Part shown: in pieces, positions 41,869-56,897 of the stretch
Layout: the number at the start of each line of letters is the position of its first letter
Numbering within the stretch: position 1 is the stretch's first letter
Source of the DNA: Desulfamplus sp.
GTDB taxonomy: Bacteria > Desulfobacterota > Desulfobacteria > Desulfobacterales > Desulfobacteraceae
Reading direction: 5' to 3'
DNA: 64,000 nucleotides
Assembly (NCBI GenBank): GCA_015232455.1
Contig: JADFZQ010000010.1
Span: 1-64,000 of the forward strand
The notes under the pieces: generated by a model
What the model was told of the DNA's origin: nothing
The model's input: only the letters and a program-made list of their open reading frames with translations
Databases searched by the model: none
Made by a program: the position numbers and the translations under genes

Positions 41869-43317
41869 TTATTGTGAAACAACCTGTTTAACGTATTTCA
41901 TTACAACAACAGGAATATTCATACCATTAAGCCCTTTCAAGCTATCCGCAACATTTTGAGGAAGTCCGCTATATAAGAGTGAAGCCTCAACTGTGATTTT
42001 ACCTTCAAACTCTCCAATATCAATTTTTTCAACCTTCTCTTTCATAGGTTTAAGCCTCTTATCGCTTATTATCTCTCGTGCTTTTGCTAAATTATCAACA
42101 GGATTACCTTTTCCATCTCCAAAAACAGTAGAGTAAGATATCGTATTTGGAGGTAGATAACCCTTTTTGTCAGGAATCCCTGTTTTATAGAGAACATTGC
42201 CCTTGCTATCTTTTACTATAACTTTAAGCCAAACCTGACGAATGTTAGAGACTCCTGTTGGGATTTCATGCCCTGCTCCATTATTTGTTATTCTAATAAT
42301 AATTCTATTTTCTTCACTATTTTGGCTCTTAATATTTTTAGCATCAGCCTTATTCTGCTGTTTAAGTTCAACTTTAGGGTCTATTTTAATATCAACAGAA
42401 TTTTTAAGCCTCTCTTCTGCCATTTTTGAGATGATTGAGATATTTTCTTTACCTTGGCTTTGATCTTGCTCTTTGGAGATAGCCTTATAATGTTCTGGAA
42501 TTGCCATATTTGCACCAACAAAATAGTGTGTAAATATATGCTCTCTCTCAACTGAACCGTCAGCCGCTGTTCCTGGATTTTTGACTCTTTTGGTTGAACC
42601 TGTGGATGGATATTCTGGTCTTTGATACATGTGGCAATCTTGGCACTGAACCCCTTGTTTACTGTATGGGCTTTGCTTCCATTCCTGATAAGTTGTCTCA
42701 AGCCAGACACCTGAGGTTATATGCTTAACATCATGGCATGTTCCGCATAGTTCTGATTTTGTATGAAACTCTGAAAACTCAGATTTGTGATAATCGGAGT
42801 CAGAATCTTTAAAGGGACCTCTTTTAACTCCCGGATCATCTTCTCCATTTCCAGGACTATAGTTAAATTGTGCATTATAAATTGAATAGGCACCTGTGAT
42901 TGAGTGGCAGTAATCACACTGAATCCCTTGCTTTGCTATTGGTGCTATTTTTGTTCTATCATCAGATGTCTTACGAGGAAACCCAGTTATATAACCAACT
43001 GGTGTGTGGCATGTTTGGCAATGCTCAGCTTCCTCTATCTCATCTTTAGAGCTAAGCCCAACAAGACCAGCATTTGCGATCTCATTGAAAATTATATCAT
43101 CAGATGCAAGATTGTGCATTGAGCCTTGCCACTGTTCATATATTTGAGTATGACACCCGCCGCATGTTTCTGGAGAGATAAACTGCGAAAGCTCATAGTG
43201 TTTAGTTTGTTCAGATGCCCATGAGTTTTCATAAAACAGATGAAATGTGCATAGAGCAACTAATAACAATATAGATTGAAAAGAGATAGAGTTAATAATA
43301 GATACTGTTTTATTCAT
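41869..43317 (-). CDS. Periplasmic multiheme cytochrome c (five CxxCH sites)
   Basis: About 482 residues from the ATG at 43317, which gives a clean signal peptide ending near SWA-SEQ. A longer frame from 43359 would put 14 extra residues before it. Five heme-binding motifs lie in the first half (CGGCH, CQTCH, CDYCH, CGTCH, CQDCH), each with a nearby His as possible second ligand. This is a cytochrome c554/NrfB-like arrangement. The C-terminal half (about 300-480) is beta-rich with IRITNNGAGHEIPTGVSNIRQVW. It is presumably a periplasmic electron carrier or reductase subunit. It lies among flagellar genes, which is unusual. Confidence 0.85.
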   Translation of the reverse strand: MNKTVSIINSISFQSILLLVALCTFHLFYENSWASEQTKHYELSQFISPETCGGCHTQIYEQWQGSMHNLASDDIIFNEIANAGLVGLSSKDEIEEAEHCQTCHTPVGYITGFPRKTSDDRTKIAPIAKQGIQCDYCHSITGAYSIYNAQFNYSPGNGEDDPGVKRGPFKDSDSDYHKSEFSEFHTKSELCGTCHDVKHITSGVWLETTYQEWKQSPYSKQGVQCQDCHMYQRPEYPSTGSTKRVKNPGTAADGSVEREHIFTHYFVGANMAIPEHYKAISKEQDQSQGKENISIISKMAEERLKNSVDIKIDPKVELKQQNKADAKNIKSQNSEENRIIIRITNNGAGHEIPTGVSNIRQVWLKVIVKDSKGNVLYKTGIPDKKGYLPPNTISYSTVFGDGKGNPVDNLAKAREIISDKRLKPMKEKVEKIDIGEFEGKITVEASLLYSGLPQNVADSLKGLNGMNIPVVVMKYVKQVVSQ

Positions 43318-43442
43318 AATAAAGATTCTCAATTGTAATTTGTTAATGGGTATAATCATCTATACCTGAAACTGTCATAAATTTAGCTTTTCTATATGCA
43401 AAAAGCCAACTTATGACCGAGAGGAGCATATTTACAATATAA

Positions 43443-43757
43443 TCACGCCACTGTATTAAGAATGTTTCCGGGCAGATCAGGATCACTTTTTCTGGGCTTG
43501 GGTTGATTCTTACGTTGCTCTTTTTTTCTTTTTGCGATTCTGTTTTGCTCTTCCCTCTTCTTCTCCCTTGCATCAACATTGACCTTTCCAGATGTGTCTG
43601 ACGAGACAACTGTAGTCTGTTCAACATTTTCTCTTACAAGCTGTTGTGTCTGAAGATGTCCCGGGTCTGGCTGAACAGGTTTAAGATTATGAGTTGCATC
43701 ATGTGCAAGGTTAGATTGCTGAATTACATGGGCATGAGCTGCTGGTATTGTTGTCAT
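43443..43757 (-). CDS. Small conserved hydrophilic flagellar-cluster protein
   Basis: A 104-residue soluble protein beginning MTTIPAAHAHVIQQSN and ending DLPGNILNTVA, with a middle Lys/Arg/Glu-rich stretch (AREKKREEQNRIAKRKKEQR). I recall similar proteins, with the same MTTIPA(x)HAH start and PG(x)xx(D/N)TVA end, next to fliA and flhF genes in deltaproteobacteria; none has a known role. It has a strong AGGGGG ribosome site. The gene lies 123 bases downstream of the FliL-like/FliM-peptide gene. Confidence 0.65.
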   Translation of the reverse strand: MTTIPAAHAHVIQQSNLAHDATHNLKPVQPDPGHLQTQQLVRENVEQTTVVSSDTSGKVNVDAREKKREEQNRIAKRKKEQRKNQPKPRKSDPDLPGNILNTVA

Positions 43758-43880: not shown

Positions 43881-45659
43881 CTATCCTGTTTTAAAATTTA
43901 CAAAAATAATCTTATTAAGTTTTACATCAGGTAAAGCCTGCTTTAAAGCGTTTTGAACAATCTCAAGAAGTTCGCTCTCTGTCAATTTATCCCCTTTATC
44001 TGATTTAAGGGCATTGTTAATTACATCGTAGATAACACCCCTGTAGTAAGGCAATTTGCTATTTATAGCATCAAACGCGGTTGAGTGCGAATATTCAATT
44101 GAAACATCTAAAGAGATATATGTAACTCCATCATGCCTTTCAGGTGTAAAAATAATAAAATTTTCAAGATTAATAGTTCCGGGGGTCAACTCTTGAGACT
44201 CCTTTATAGTCATATCAGGAGCTTCGTTTTTAACAGATAAATTCTCTTCAACTTGAACCTTTGGTTGAGAAGAGCGGAGAAGTTCATCTACTTTTTCTTT
44301 AAAAAACATGAAATATAGACCAGCTACAGAACCAGCAATAAGGGTTAAAATTAGCAATATAATGATAATAATCTTAAGAAGAGAGCTTTTTTTCTTGGGT
44401 TTATCTTCTGCAATCTCCATAAGATCAGCAAGCTGTCTTACAGTCCCATCAGCAAGGGTTGTATCAGGCTCATCTGCCTCTTGAAGAATAACTTGAGCAT
44501 TATCATCTTCAGGAAGACCACTTTCAACATTCTGAACAGGTACAGAAGAACTCTTAAGGTCTTCGTCCATCTCCATGTCAGCCAAAATATCTTCATCTTC
44601 TTCTTCTGTTCCAGCAAGAAGTGCATCAATATCATCTTGAGATATGATATTTCTTACACCGTCATCGCCGCCCTCAGTAGCATTTTGCCTCTCTTTAGTT
44701 TCTTCATCAATATCATCAATATTTTGACTACCATCAGATACCAGATCATCACTATCTTTTAGAAATCCATCAATATCGTCTTGGGAAATCTCGTTAAGGA
44801 GATCGTCCATATCTCCTGCAGAGTCGTTAAGCAGTTTATCTAAATCACCGCCCGCAATATCATCAATACCACTATCAATATTAAAATCTGGATCATCTTC
44901 TGAGAGATTTACCTTAAAGTCATCATCTGACGGAGGTTTTCTTCGAGCGTTTACTATCTCGCTATCTTCGGTATCATCAACAATTTGACTTAATAGATTG
45001 TCAACTGTCTCTTGGGTTATAAGGCAATCTTCAATATTCCACGCTTCAGATGGATCAATAATCTCTTCATCAGATAGAGAATTTTTGTCTGGAATATCTT
45101 CTTCTACGGCTGAGGCAAAGTCTGATGATTCTATACTGTTATCAAGCTCATCAAGCCCAAGAGAATCTAAATTTATATCTGAAGATATGTCAGACTCTAA
45201 GTCTGGAATATCGTCAGTGGACATAAGTTTATCAATATCATCTTGAGAGATGAGATCAAACGCTCCTGAATCTTCCTCTTTATTATCCTTAATTATAGCA
45301 GTATCAGATTGACCAGAAGATTGTGAATTTAGCATTCTGTCAATATCATCTTGGGAAAGCTCCCCAAGATCGTCATCTTCATCATCTTCCTCTTCTTGTT
45401 CATCAAGAGTTGACTCTTCAAATAGGGCTTTATCGTCAATTTCAGAAGATGGGGTTAAATCTTTATCAGGTTCGTCAGAAACTAATGCTGCATTTAAAAG
45501 TCGATCAATATCGTCCTGAGATAACTCTCCTGCAATATCATCAATAGCGTCATCTCCGCTATTAACAATACTCTCTTCAGCCTCTTCAAGTGATTGGGCG
45601 TTGAGGAGTTTATCAATATCGTCCTGAGAGAACAGGACATCGTCATCAGAAGGGGACAT
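43881..45659 (-). CDS. FliL-like membrane protein with array of FliM-type CheY-binding motifs
   Basis: A 592-residue protein. The cytoplasmic N-terminal 425 residues are strongly acidic and carry six SQDDID motifs (starting at residues 11, 47, 102, 138, 292 and 340), usually followed by (K/R/A)LL, plus degenerate copies (TQETVDNLL at 215, GDLDKLL at 271, DMDDLL at 283). These copy the N-terminal peptide of FliM (here SQDEVDSLL), which binds CheY-P. A single membrane helix lies at 427-452. The C-terminal 110 residues (NLENFIIFTPERHDG, YISLDVSIEYS, IVQNALKQALPD, KIIFVNFKTG) resemble the periplasmic domain of FliL. It follows fliA in the flagellar operon. CheY capture near the motor is inferred. 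Confidence 0.75.
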   Translation of the reverse strand: MSPSDDDVLFSQDDIDKLLNAQSLEEAEESIVNSGDDAIDDIAGELSQDDIDRLLNAALVSDEPDKDLTPSSEIDDKALFEESTLDEQEEEDDEDDDLGELSQDDIDRMLNSQSSGQSDTAIIKDNKEEDSGAFDLISQDDIDKLMSTDDIPDLESDISSDINLDSLGLDELDNSIESSDFASAVEEDIPDKNSLSDEEIIDPSEAWNIEDCLITQETVDNLLSQIVDDTEDSEIVNARRKPPSDDDFKVNLSEDDPDFNIDSGIDDIAGGDLDKLLNDSAGDMDDLLNEISQDDIDGFLKDSDDLVSDGSQNIDDIDEETKERQNATEGGDDGVRNIISQDDIDALLAGTEEEDEDILADMEMDEDLKSSSVPVQNVESGLPEDDNAQVILQEADEPDTTLADGTVRQLADLMEIAEDKPKKKSSLLKIIIIILLILTLIAGSVAGLYFMFFKEKVDELLRSSQPKVQVEENLSVKNEAPDMTIKESQELTPGTINLENFIIFTPERHDGVTYISLDVSIEYSHSTAFDAINSKLPYYRGVIYDVINNALKSDKGDKLTESELLEIVQNALKQALPDVKLNKIIFVNFKTG

Positions 45660-45739: not shown

Positions 45740-46477
45740 TCAATCTTCAAAATGTTCTTTAAGTTTTGATTTTAGTTTATTTAAAATAGCAGTGTGAATT
45801 TGACAGATTCTTGACTCAGTAAGATTTAGAACTTCACCTATCTCTTTTAAGGTTAGCTCTTCATAATAATAGAGAGAGACGACTAACTGCTCTTTCTCGT
45901 TGAGTTTACTTATAGCATCAGCAAGCAAAGATTTTATCTCAGCTCTGTCAAACTCATCAAAAGGAGTATCTTTAACTTTTAAAGTTGATAGAAATCTTGT
46001 CTCAGATGATGTTTCATTGTTTTTTGTCTTTAAAAATGTATCCATGCTAAGTATTGTCGCCCCATGAATCTGGGTGAGAATATCGTTATACTCATCTATG
46101 GTTACACCTAATTCTGAGGCAATCTCTTCATCAGAGGGAATTACACCTTTGCTCTCCTCAAGTTTTTTAGTGGCAATATTAACATCTTGAATTTTTTTGC
46201 GAATTGAACGTGAGTATCTATCCATGTTTCTAAGTTCATCAAGGATTGCACCTCTGATTCTATATTGGGCATAGGTTTTTAAGGTTACATGCTTCTCTGG
46301 ATCAAACTTATCTACAGCATCAATAAGACCTAATGAACCAGCACTTATAAGTTCATCAAACAGCACACTTGAAGGAAGCCTGCGGGCAAATCCTGATGCA
46401 ATCTGTTTGACTAAGAAAGCATATTCCACAATCCTTGCTTCACGCCATGAAGGGTCTTTAAGAGCATTTTGTTTCAA
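45740..46477 (-). CDS. fliA: Flagellar sigma factor sigma-28 (FliA)
   Basis: A 245-residue sigma-70-family factor for late flagellar and chemotaxis genes. Region 2 contains DELISAGSLGLIDAVDKFD and LKTYAQYRIRGAILDELR. Region 3 has PSDEEIASELGVTIDEYN, and region 4 the ELTLKEIGEVLNLTESRICQIHTAIL helix-turn-helix. The SLGLIDAVDKFDP and IRGAILDELRxxD(R/W)xxRS motifs distinguish FliA from housekeeping sigma factors. The start lies 71 bases after flhG. Its anti-sigma partner FlgM is not encoded in this window. Confidence 0.95.
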   Translation of the reverse strand: MKQNALKDPSWREARIVEYAFLVKQIASGFARRLPSSVLFDELISAGSLGLIDAVDKFDPEKHVTLKTYAQYRIRGAILDELRNMDRYSRSIRKKIQDVNIATKKLEESKGVIPSDEEIASELGVTIDEYNDILTQIHGATILSMDTFLKTKNNETSSETRFLSTLKVKDTPFDEFDRAEIKSLLADAISKLNEKEQLVVSLYYYEELTLKEIGEVLNLTESRICQIHTAILNKLKSKLKEHFED

Positions 46478-46548: not shown

Positions 46549-47445
46549 TCAATTCACTGCATCTAAAATTCTTTTCATAAAAAATTTGATATTACCATCT
46601 GAAGCTGCTCTGATTGGTGACTCTACTATTTTACGGGCAATCTCTTTAATTGCCATAGCAGAAGGAGAATCTGGTGCGTAATCCATAACAGTGCTTCTGT
46701 TTAAAACAGCTTTTTGAAGTTTTGGGTCAGATGGAATATTGCCAAGATACTCCAGAACAACGTTTTTAAGAAAACGACCAATTGCATTATCAAGAGTTGC
46801 ATAGACAGATTTTGCATCTTTTTTTGAATCTACCACATTGACCAATAGTTTAAAATACTTTGTTCCATATTCTTGAGACATAACTTTCATAAGTGCATAA
46901 GCATCTGTAATAGAGGTTGGTTCTCGCGTTGCAATAACAATACACTCATCAGCAGCGGAGTTAAAATATAAAACATTTGAAGATATTCCAGCACCAGTGT
47001 CAAGTAAGATAATATCTGCCATATTTTCAAGGGTTTCAAACTCTGTAAGAAGATTTAGTTTTTCTCCGTGTGTTAATTGAGTAAGATTTGCAAACCCTGA
47101 ACCACCAGCAATTATATGGACACCATGTTTAGTTGTTACCATAACTTCATGTAGAGTTCTCTCTCCATTTATGACATGGCTTATATTATATTTGGGTCGA
47201 AGATTGAATATAATATCAATATTTGCAAGACCAACATCTGCATCAACAATAACGACTCTTTTGCCAAGTGCATTCAATGCAATAGCAAGGTTTCCAACCA
47301 TATTTGTTTTACCCACCCCGCCTTTGCCACTGGTAACAGATATGACCCTTGGAACTCTCCGACTGCCGCCTGTAAAAACAGAAGGTGAGACTTTTGATAA
47401 AGAATCTGTCTTAACAATATTTCTTAATCCACTTGCCTGATCCAC
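46549..47445 (-). CDS. flhG: Flagellar number regulator FlhG (MinD-like ATPase)
   Basis: A 298-residue protein when started at the GTG at 47445, which has AGGAG (47454-47458) eight bases upstream and gives the typical N-terminus VDQASGLRNIV. An in-frame ATG at 47499 adds 18 atypical residues. The deviant Walker A is VTSGKGGVGKTNMVGNLA, and the switch DADVGLANIDI and DTGAGIS are present. FlhG keeps flagellar number low by acting on FlhF through its DQAxxLR peptide. The C-terminus (FFMKRILDAVN) could be the membrane-targeting helix. It sits between flhF and fliA, the usual order. Confidence 0.92.
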   Translation of the reverse strand: MDQASGLRNIVKTDSLSKVSPSVFTGGSRRVPRVISVTSGKGGVGKTNMVGNLAIALNALGKRVVIVDADVGLANIDIIFNLRPKYNISHVINGERTLHEVMVTTKHGVHIIAGGSGFANLTQLTHGEKLNLLTEFETLENMADIILLDTGAGISSNVLYFNSAADECIVIATREPTSITDAYALMKVMSQEYGTKYFKLLVNVVDSKKDAKSVYATLDNAIGRFLKNVVLEYLGNIPSDPKLQKAVLNRSTVMDYAPDSPSAMAIKEIARKIVESPIRAASDGNIKFFMKRILDAVN

Positions 47446-47559
47446 TTTATTATCTCCTATATATCGCTCTTCTGCCCTTATTCTTAACCTGATTACCATT
47501 TATTGCTATAATTTACTCTTGCCAAACAGAGATAATTTTGCATTTCCATCTACACTTAA

Positions 47560-55213: not shown

Positions 55214-56197
55214 TTATTTCAACTTCAACTTCTCTTCAACCCTAAATGCCTGAAAACCTCTTCTTACACCTGCATATCCTTTTATTTTTGGAAGATCGCC
55301 TACATACCCTGTCAACATCTCAGTAGCATCGTGATCCAACTGAATAATATCACCTTTTTGCATAAGCCAGAGTCTCTCTCCTGTTATTTCAGTTGCACCT
55401 AACTCTATTCTAAGTTCAACCATAGATTCTAAAATTACAGACTCTAACATTTCACGCCATGCAAGGTCTGTCTGTTCAATCTCTGCCTGAAATCCAGAAG
55501 CTAACTTTGATCTTAAAGGTTCTATCATTGAGTATGGAAGACAAACAATCAAATTTCCAGCAATCTGCTCAAGCTCAATCTCAAATCTTGTAACAATAAC
55601 TAGATCAGTCGGAAGAACTATTGCTGCAAACTGAGGGTTCATCTCAGACCTTACAAGCGATGTTTTAATATTTTCAATAGGACCCCATGCAGTTTCAATG
55701 TTTTTAAGACAAGCTACAACAACCTTTTTTGTAGCAACCTCCTCAATGACTGTAAAATCTCTTCCTTCGACCCTTGCTCTGCCTGAACCTTCACCGCCAA
55801 AAAAAGTATCTATAAGGTTATATACAAGTTGGCTCTCAAGAATAACAAGTGCAAGACCTCTTAAAGGCTCCATTCTAAATACGTGTAAACTTGTTGGAAC
55901 AGGAAGGCTTCTTACAAATTCAGAAAACTTAAGTGTATCAAGAGGGTTAGCACTAACATCTACGTTTGTTTGAAGCAGAGTTGACATGCTTGCCCGCAAC
56001 TCTCTTGCAAGACGCTCATTAATAACATCAAAGGTGGGCATCCTTGCCCTGACAACCTTATCTTGACTTGAGAAATCATAAAGGGCGATACCATCGGCTG
56101 AAATAGGGGCTTCCGCCTCTTTTTCAACCTCAACTTCGCCTGAATCAAGACCAGCAAGTAGGCTGTCAACCTCATCTTGAGATAGTATTTCGCTCAT
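55214..56197 (-). CDS. fliM: C-ring protein FliM
   Basis: A 327-residue rotor switch protein. The N-terminal CheY-binding peptide is MSEILSQDEVDSLLAGLDSG. A CheC-like middle domain follows (YDFSSQDKVVRARMPTFDVINERLARELR, LRGLALVILESQLVYNLIDTFFGG) and then a C-terminal SpoA domain (VELRIELGATEITGERLWLMQKGDIIQLD). Length is normal. It sits between fliL and fliN. Its N-terminal peptide is the template for the repeated motifs in the protein at 43881-45659. Confidence 0.96.
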   Translation of the reverse strand: MSEILSQDEVDSLLAGLDSGEVEVEKEAEAPISADGIALYDFSSQDKVVRARMPTFDVINERLARELRASMSTLLQTNVDVSANPLDTLKFSEFVRSLPVPTSLHVFRMEPLRGLALVILESQLVYNLIDTFFGGEGSGRARVEGRDFTVIEEVATKKVVVACLKNIETAWGPIENIKTSLVRSEMNPQFAAIVLPTDLVIVTRFEIELEQIAGNLIVCLPYSMIEPLRSKLASGFQAEIEQTDLAWREMLESVILESMVELRIELGATEITGERLWLMQKGDIIQLDHDATEMLTGYVGDLPKIKGYAGVRRGFQAFRVEEKLKLK

Positions 56198-56258: not shown

Positions 56259-56897
56259 TTACTGCACAATAAAAGTGGTAAAATAGATATTTTTTATAAT
56301 CTTTGAAGGCAATGATTTATTCAACTCTTGAATAAGGCGATATTTAAAATTTAATTTGCCGTCTGGTGTCCTTAATGTAAGCCAACTCATCTTTTTTATT
56401 TCAGATTCTACAACCTGACGAAGTTTATCTGTATTTGCTTCAATCTCTTTTCGCATTTCAGGCTTATTTATTTCAATGGAAAGTTTTAGTGTAAGGTAGC
56501 TGAGAGATTCGCTCTCCTGTAATTTTATCTTTTCAAATTTTTCTAAATCTACAATATCAGGAAAGTCAGGTTCAGGAGGTAAAATTGGTTTGCCATCTTT
56601 ATCTACTTCTCCTTTTTCTGTTTTACTATTCTCCTCTATTTTAGCTTGTTCAGCTTTATCAGCATCGATTTTTTTTAGAAAAAAGTACCACCCAGCAAAG
56701 CCCGCCCCTGCAAGAATTACAATGAGAATCAAAAATATAATCATAAATTTCAAACTAAATATCTTTTTGAAAAATGATTTTTTTGCAGGCTCACCCTCTT
56801 TTTTAATCTCTTTAGGAGATTGAGCAACTGGCTTTTTAACTTTAGCAGAATTTTTTTCTTTCTCTAAGTTTTTATCTTTTTTCTTGAACCCAAACAA
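56259..56897 (-). CDS. fliL: Flagellar basal-body protein FliL
   Basis: A 212-residue protein with TTG start and AGGATAGGG upstream. It has a Lys-rich cytoplasmic N-terminus (1-50), a membrane helix (51-74), an acidic linker and a periplasmic FliL domain (VDLEKFEKIKLQ, YLTLKLSIEIN, KLRQVVESEIKKM). FliL rings around stators and supports torque. A second FliL-like domain occurs at 43881-45659. The gene follows flgE after a palindrome that may separate the two transcription units. Confidence 0.88.
   Translation of the reverse strand: MFGFKKKDKNLEKEKNSAKVKKPVAQSPKEIKKEGEPAKKSFFKKIFSLKFMIIFLILIVILAGAGFAGWYFFLKKIDADKAEQAKIEENSKTEKGEVDKDGKPILPPEPDFPDIVDLEKFEKIKLQESESLSYLTLKLSIEINKPEMRKEIEANTDKLRQVVESEIKKMSWLTLRTPDGKLNFKYRLIQELNKSLPSKIIKNIYFTTFIVQ

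Follow-up and report, generated by a model that had tools for sequence, protein, structure and literature searches.

Introduction

Bacterial chemotaxis acts on the flagellar motor through a short peptide. In the known route, phosphorylated CheY (CheY-P) reaches the motor via a single copy of this peptide per FliM (or FliY), an EIDAL-type docking motif that lies at the extreme N-terminus of these C-ring proteins (PMC9126983, PMC6946799). In Escherichia coli, Asp12 of the FliM peptide pairs with Lys119 of CheY (PMC7012829). The N-terminus of FliM has a second described ligand, the MinD-type ATPase FlhG, which binds it in monotrichous bacteria (reviewed in PMC12826062).

FliL belongs to a different part of the motor. 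The proteins described from Vibrio and Helicobacter (structures 6ahp/6ahq and 7sgn; Pfam PF03748) have a single membrane helix and a characteristic periplasmic fold and are encoded in flagellar operons. Vibrio FliL forms a ring around the stators (PMC6426602). FliL contacts MotA and MotB, its N-terminal side is reported to restrain motor output, and the cytoplasmic N-terminus of known FliLs is only 2–28 residues long (PMC10127578). In Caulobacter, chemotaxis requires another flagellar accessory protein, FssF, which is linked to the stator pathway; FssF is a homologue of the C-ring protein FliN, not a FliL, and the abstract of its description mentions no multi-motif array (PMC11580411).

Here we describe a protein that joins these two elements. 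It is encoded in a 64,000-nucleotide stretch of a contig from a sulfate reducer, Desulfamplus sp. (hereafter, the window), and it resembles FliL in fold, in operon setting and in a predicted single membrane helix. It departs from known FliLs in its N-terminal tail, which spans approximately 423 residues and contains an array of FliM-type peptides.

A second FliL with six FliM-type peptides

The array FliL gene lies on the minus strand, from an ATG at 45659 to a stop codon at 43881–43883, and the start is preceded by AAAGG, a plausible ribosome-binding site (Table 1). The motif KPKKK directly ahead of the one hydrophobic helix (residues 427–453) fits a cytoplasmic N-terminus, and from the sequence we infer that the acidic tail is cytoplasmic and the C-terminal domain periplasmic.

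Table 1. Features of the array FliL gene and its flagellar neighborhood (window coordinates)
Feature	Position	Strand	Details and basis
Array FliL, a FliL paralogue with FliM-type (putative CheY-docking) peptides in its N-terminal tail	43881..45659	-	592 aa; ORF, orthologues, synteny
Acidic tail, residues 1-423	44391..45659	-	net charge -118; predicted disordered (from composition) and cytoplasmic
Motif copy 1, SQDDIDKLL, residues 11-19	45603..45629	-	sequence; conserved
Motif copy 2, SQDDIDRLL, residues 47-55	45495..45521	-	sequence; conserved
Motif copy 3, SQDDIDRML, residues 102-110	45330..45356	-	sequence; conserved
Motif copy 4, SQDDIDKLM, residues 138-146	45222..45248	-	sequence; conserved
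Degenerate copy, TQETVDNLL, residues 215-223	44991..45017	-	sequence
Motif copy 5, SQDDIDGFL, residues 292-300	44760..44786	-	sequence; conserved
Motif copy 6, SQDDIDALL, residues 340-348	44616..44642	-	sequence; conserved
Single transmembrane helix, residues 427-453, KPKKK just before	44301..44381	-	sequence; helix in model
FliL (SPFH-like) periplasmic domain, residues 491-592	43884..44189	-	profile, model, fold match
fliA	45740..46477	-	conserved, just upstream of array FliL; ORF, synteny
flhG	46549..47499	-	conserved, two genes upstream; would be the partner under FlhG docking, the main rival; ORF, synteny
fliM	55214..56197	-	single canonical N-terminal peptide LSQDEVDSLL; ORF, Pfam
fliL, canonical	56259..56897	-	212 aa, no array; adjoins fliM

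A first-pass annotation of the window had called the C-terminal domain FliL-like. By Pfam, this domain falls below threshold (PF03748, 14.3 bits against a curated cut-off of 24.6), but the family profile and the predicted fold both agree with the call. Orthologues in three relatives (G020, G024, G047) exceed the PF03748 cut-off, and a profile built from 25 orthologous domains matches solved FliL structures (7sgn, E 9.5e-7; 9hmf, E 0.0015). An AlphaFold model of the domain, of moderate confidence (pLDDT 69), finds its best fold matches in the Helicobacter and Vibrio FliLs (7sgn, 6ahp and 6ahq; Z 11.0–11.2, rmsd 2.4–2.9 over 95–99 residues), followed by prohibitin, stomatin and other SPFH proteins. 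Because a canonical FliL is encoded beside fliM, the array protein is a second FliL. A third FliL-domain protein of approximately 300 residues is encoded outside the flagellar operon in this genome (G000:C22:335737-335985) and in most genomes of the family.

The same annotation had counted six SQDDID motifs, at residues 11, 47, 102, 138, 292 and 340. These positions are exact, and the strand, which it left unstated, is minus; of the degenerate copies it mentioned, one is listed in Table 1. In 20,000 shuffles of residues 1–425, SQDDID occurred on average 0.0018 times and never more than once. The six copies are encoded by differing codons and thus are not fresh DNA duplicates. A genome-wide search with the DNA pattern QD[DE][IV]DxL matched only the array FliL gene, FliM and one unrelated ORF, whose peptide (IQDEIDKLI) lacks the serine. 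FliM of the window begins MSEILSQDEVDSLL, as had been noted, and in the genomes compared every readable FliM N-terminus contains one [ST]Q-x-E-[VI]-[DN]-x-LL peptide.

Conservation of the gene and variation of the array

The array FliL is a conserved flagellar gene. Flagellar synteny holds in some 70 loci from across the order Desulfobacterales: nearly all loci with flanking sequence have the gene order flhA-flhF-flhG-fliA-[array FliL], and (small ORF)-DUF2802-FliK-like follows. The small ORF of the window (43443-43757, minus strand) encodes 104 residues, is found in many relatives and has no Pfam match. The flagellar operon of this genome also contains a multihaem cytochrome c554-type gene (41869-43359, minus strand), an arrangement shared with only a few Desulfamplus relatives.

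Orthologues of the array FliL are found in 35 of 58 relatives, and a wider search confined to the order gave matches in 58 of 242 genomes. In a search of 395 genomes of the phylum with a C-terminal domain profile, the long form appeared in this order alone, and we therefore rejected the array as a phylum-wide trait. When copies are counted with the pattern (I/L/V)-[ST]-Q-x-[DE]-[IL]-[DE]-x-[LMF]-[LMFI], at least two are present in 51 of the 79 loci read, with a maximum of 17.

Five lineages (f4, f144, f163, f25 and f142), most of which possess a CheY, keep the gene without the motif. In f4, the place of the array is taken by another short repeat, xGxEL[DS]E; examples are the FxGNELDE and FTGDELSEPE repeats that replace SQDDID in the N-terminal tails of L245 and L252 (G574 and G489). 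In another orthologue without SQDDID (L209:9375-10229, G093), the tail is short and acidic and contains repeated WGG segments.

Arrays matching the DNA pattern in four further genomes (G072, G227, G174 and G442) were rejected as orthologues, being different proteins that lack the FliL domain. Three of these (L204:9328-10620, L205 and L206, in G072, G227 and G174) are non-flagellar and contain arrays of GQDDLDALLAELGG in Ala/Pro-rich linkers; the L204 gene sits just upstream of valS. These proteins are possibly another receiver-docking array. The fourth (L207:8299-11172, G442), encoded next to a RecJ-like gene, is a non-flagellar membrane protein with several NQDDLDALL/SQEELDDLF copies in a long C-terminal tail.

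Purifying selection on the motif

The QDDID residues do not vary freely; free variation was the outcome that the first-pass annotation had named as fatal to its proposal. Compared with seven orthologues from the genus, the window protein is 97% identical in its motif residues, 55% in its linkers and 72% in its FliL domain. For the five most diverged of these orthologues, the changes in the 54 motif codons are almost all synonymous (19–28 synonymous, 1–3 non-synonymous), while the linkers show 158–196 non-synonymous changes. At the level of sequence, these comparisons show that the motif is under purifying selection, and on the codon analysis we rejected the motif as mere low complexity.

The same constraint pattern emerges from 370 copies at 58 loci. 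Every copy has I, L, V, F or M before the serine, though the search did not require it; positions 3 and 7, likewise unconstrained by the search, do vary. At the second aspartate of SQDDID, the counterpart of E. coli FliM Asp12, 88% of copies have Asp and the others Glu, these two being the only residues that the search admitted. The resulting consensus, hydrophobic-S-Q-x-acidic-I/L/V-D-x-L-L, is that of the FliM/FliY docking peptide. The two settings differ: FliM and FliY, as C-ring proteins, have a single copy, and the array FliL, a membrane protein, has 2–17, in which D-I replaces E-V.

CheY and co-variation with chemosensory genes

The genome encodes a CheY that is 58% identical to that of E. 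coli and keeps Asp57, Thr87, Tyr106, Lys109 and Lys119. Its gene directly adjoins that of the phosphatase CheX, and in six genomes (G016, G018, G035, G047, G450 and G465) this pair and the array gene share a contig, approximately 30–40 kb apart, so this is likely to be the motor CheY. CheY interface residues 107, 116 and 122 differ between some array-bearing and array-free groups, in a pattern that follows relatedness and is given no weight here. CheZ also has a CheY-binding peptide, C-terminal and SQDxVDxLL-like, but it is a lone copy on a phosphatase, unlike the multi-copy array FliL. Since the relatives almost entirely lack CheZ, we rejected it as the origin or partner of the array.

In post hoc tests in which kinship is only partly controlled, clades with more CheA kinases tend to have more motif copies (rho 0.47 across 32 clade means; 0.65 across the 27 array-bearing clades), and the trend persists once genome size and completeness are corrected for (partial rho 0.38, p 0.03, and 0.58, p 0.001, respectively). 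G013, G458 and G497 have no orthologue of this CheY, and in G036 it is interrupted by two internal stops; CheX, too, is absent from G013, G458 and G036. Arrays in the genomes without an intact orthologue of this CheY (G013, G458, G497 and G036) have 1, 1, 1 and 2 copies, compared with 1–14 in other array-bearing clades (p 0.0025, again post hoc and with some of these genomes incomplete, G013 being 80% complete); the effect is weak once zero-copy genomes are counted (p 0.07). A correlation between CheY identity and copy number (rho 0.79) was set aside because relatedness to the window genome confounds it.

Discussion

The tail of the array FliL probably docks CheY, most likely in its phosphorylated form. 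This reading is supported by purifying selection on the motif, the FliL fold, the flagellar position of the gene, a CheY with the residues for FliM binding and the co-variation with chemosensory genes. It is weakened by the five motif-free lineages, most of which have a CheY, by the D-I versus E-V difference and by the similar QDDLDALL arrays in non-flagellar proteins. The CheY-P docking proposed by the first-pass annotation is partly supported, by motif conservation and by the tracking of copy number by CheX-CheY and CheA; that annotation had overlooked both the motif-free lineages and the binding of FlhG to the FliM N-terminus.

Under CheY-P docking, the periplasmic FliL domain and membrane helix would place the protein in the stator/basal-body region, and the tail would expose approximately six amphipathic peptides of the FliM type, which docks in the groove that alpha4, beta5 and alpha5 of phosphorylated CheY form. 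Each array FliL could hold several CheY-P, weakly and reversibly, and several array FliLs per motor would together act as a reservoir of CheY-P next to the C-ring, concentrating and smoothing the signal on its way to FliM. Purely as an illustration, a ring of ten subunits with six motifs each would offer about 60 sites per motor. We put forward this specific role as buffer or antenna tentatively, with less conviction than docking itself.

A variant of CheY-P docking differs in output alone: occupancy of the tail would alter the action of the FliL domain and helix on MotAB/PomAB, as a brake or gain control that sets torque or speed. FliL contacts MotA and MotB and, through its N-terminal side, reportedly holds back motor output (PMC10127578); the array occupies exactly that side, which keeps this variant a serious contender. 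The long, variable linkers would make tight allosteric coupling less likely, and we regard a stator brake as rather unlikely. A bolder form, in which CheY-P acts on a stator FliL device through an array of variable length, with torque/speed or gain control apart from the FliM switch and array length as an evolvable gain setting fitted to the size of the chemosensory kinase set, is speculative, and we think it unlikely to hold in full.

The main rival to CheY-P docking is FlhG. The array would hold FlhG at the membrane or a new motor and so set flagellar number or C-ring assembly, and it would have no part in chemotaxis. FlhG is a known ligand of the FliM N-terminus, it is encoded two genes upstream, and the flhG-fliA-array order is conserved across Desulfobacterales. 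Moreover, the FliM peptide persists in G036 and G497 despite a broken or missing cheY, so it must have a partner besides that CheY; this fits the binding of FlhG to the FliM N-terminus (PMC12826062). However, flhG does not vary with the array, in contrast to the CheX-CheY pair, and copy number follows CheA number. As judged by co-occurrence only, flhG is present whether the array is long, short or absent, and it is retained in G013, G036 and G497, where arrays are down to 1–2 copies (the G458 contig ends at the array gene). We consider FlhG docking improbable as the function of the array.

The array might instead dock a receiver domain other than motor CheY, in another CheY-like or receiver protein, or another motor protein. 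The genome has 156 receiver-domain matches, and the array consensus has D-I where FliM of the same genomes has E-V, a difference suggesting that the partner or affinity of the array could differ from that of FliM. Against this, the core residues matching the FliM peptide are all kept, and shrinkage of the array accompanies loss of the CheX-CheY pair; we find such a partner quite improbable. That the repeats are functionless parts of a low-complexity acidic tail is scarcely credible given motif-specific purifying selection and order-wide conservation, for all the strong acidity of the tail and the recent tandem duplication that gave rise to some copies (L050 and L058).

FliL and the CheY-binding peptide are each already known. 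In the open-access literature searched, a scope that leaves most subscription journals outside, we found no FliL-type protein with a conserved multi-copy CheY peptide. If CheY-P docking is true, the array FliL would add an extra layer of signal reception at the motor to the known route through FliM. Its natural series of 1 to 17 sites would offer a test of multivalency and local buffering on an ultrasensitive switch, and the protein may reveal the role of the N-terminal side of FliL.
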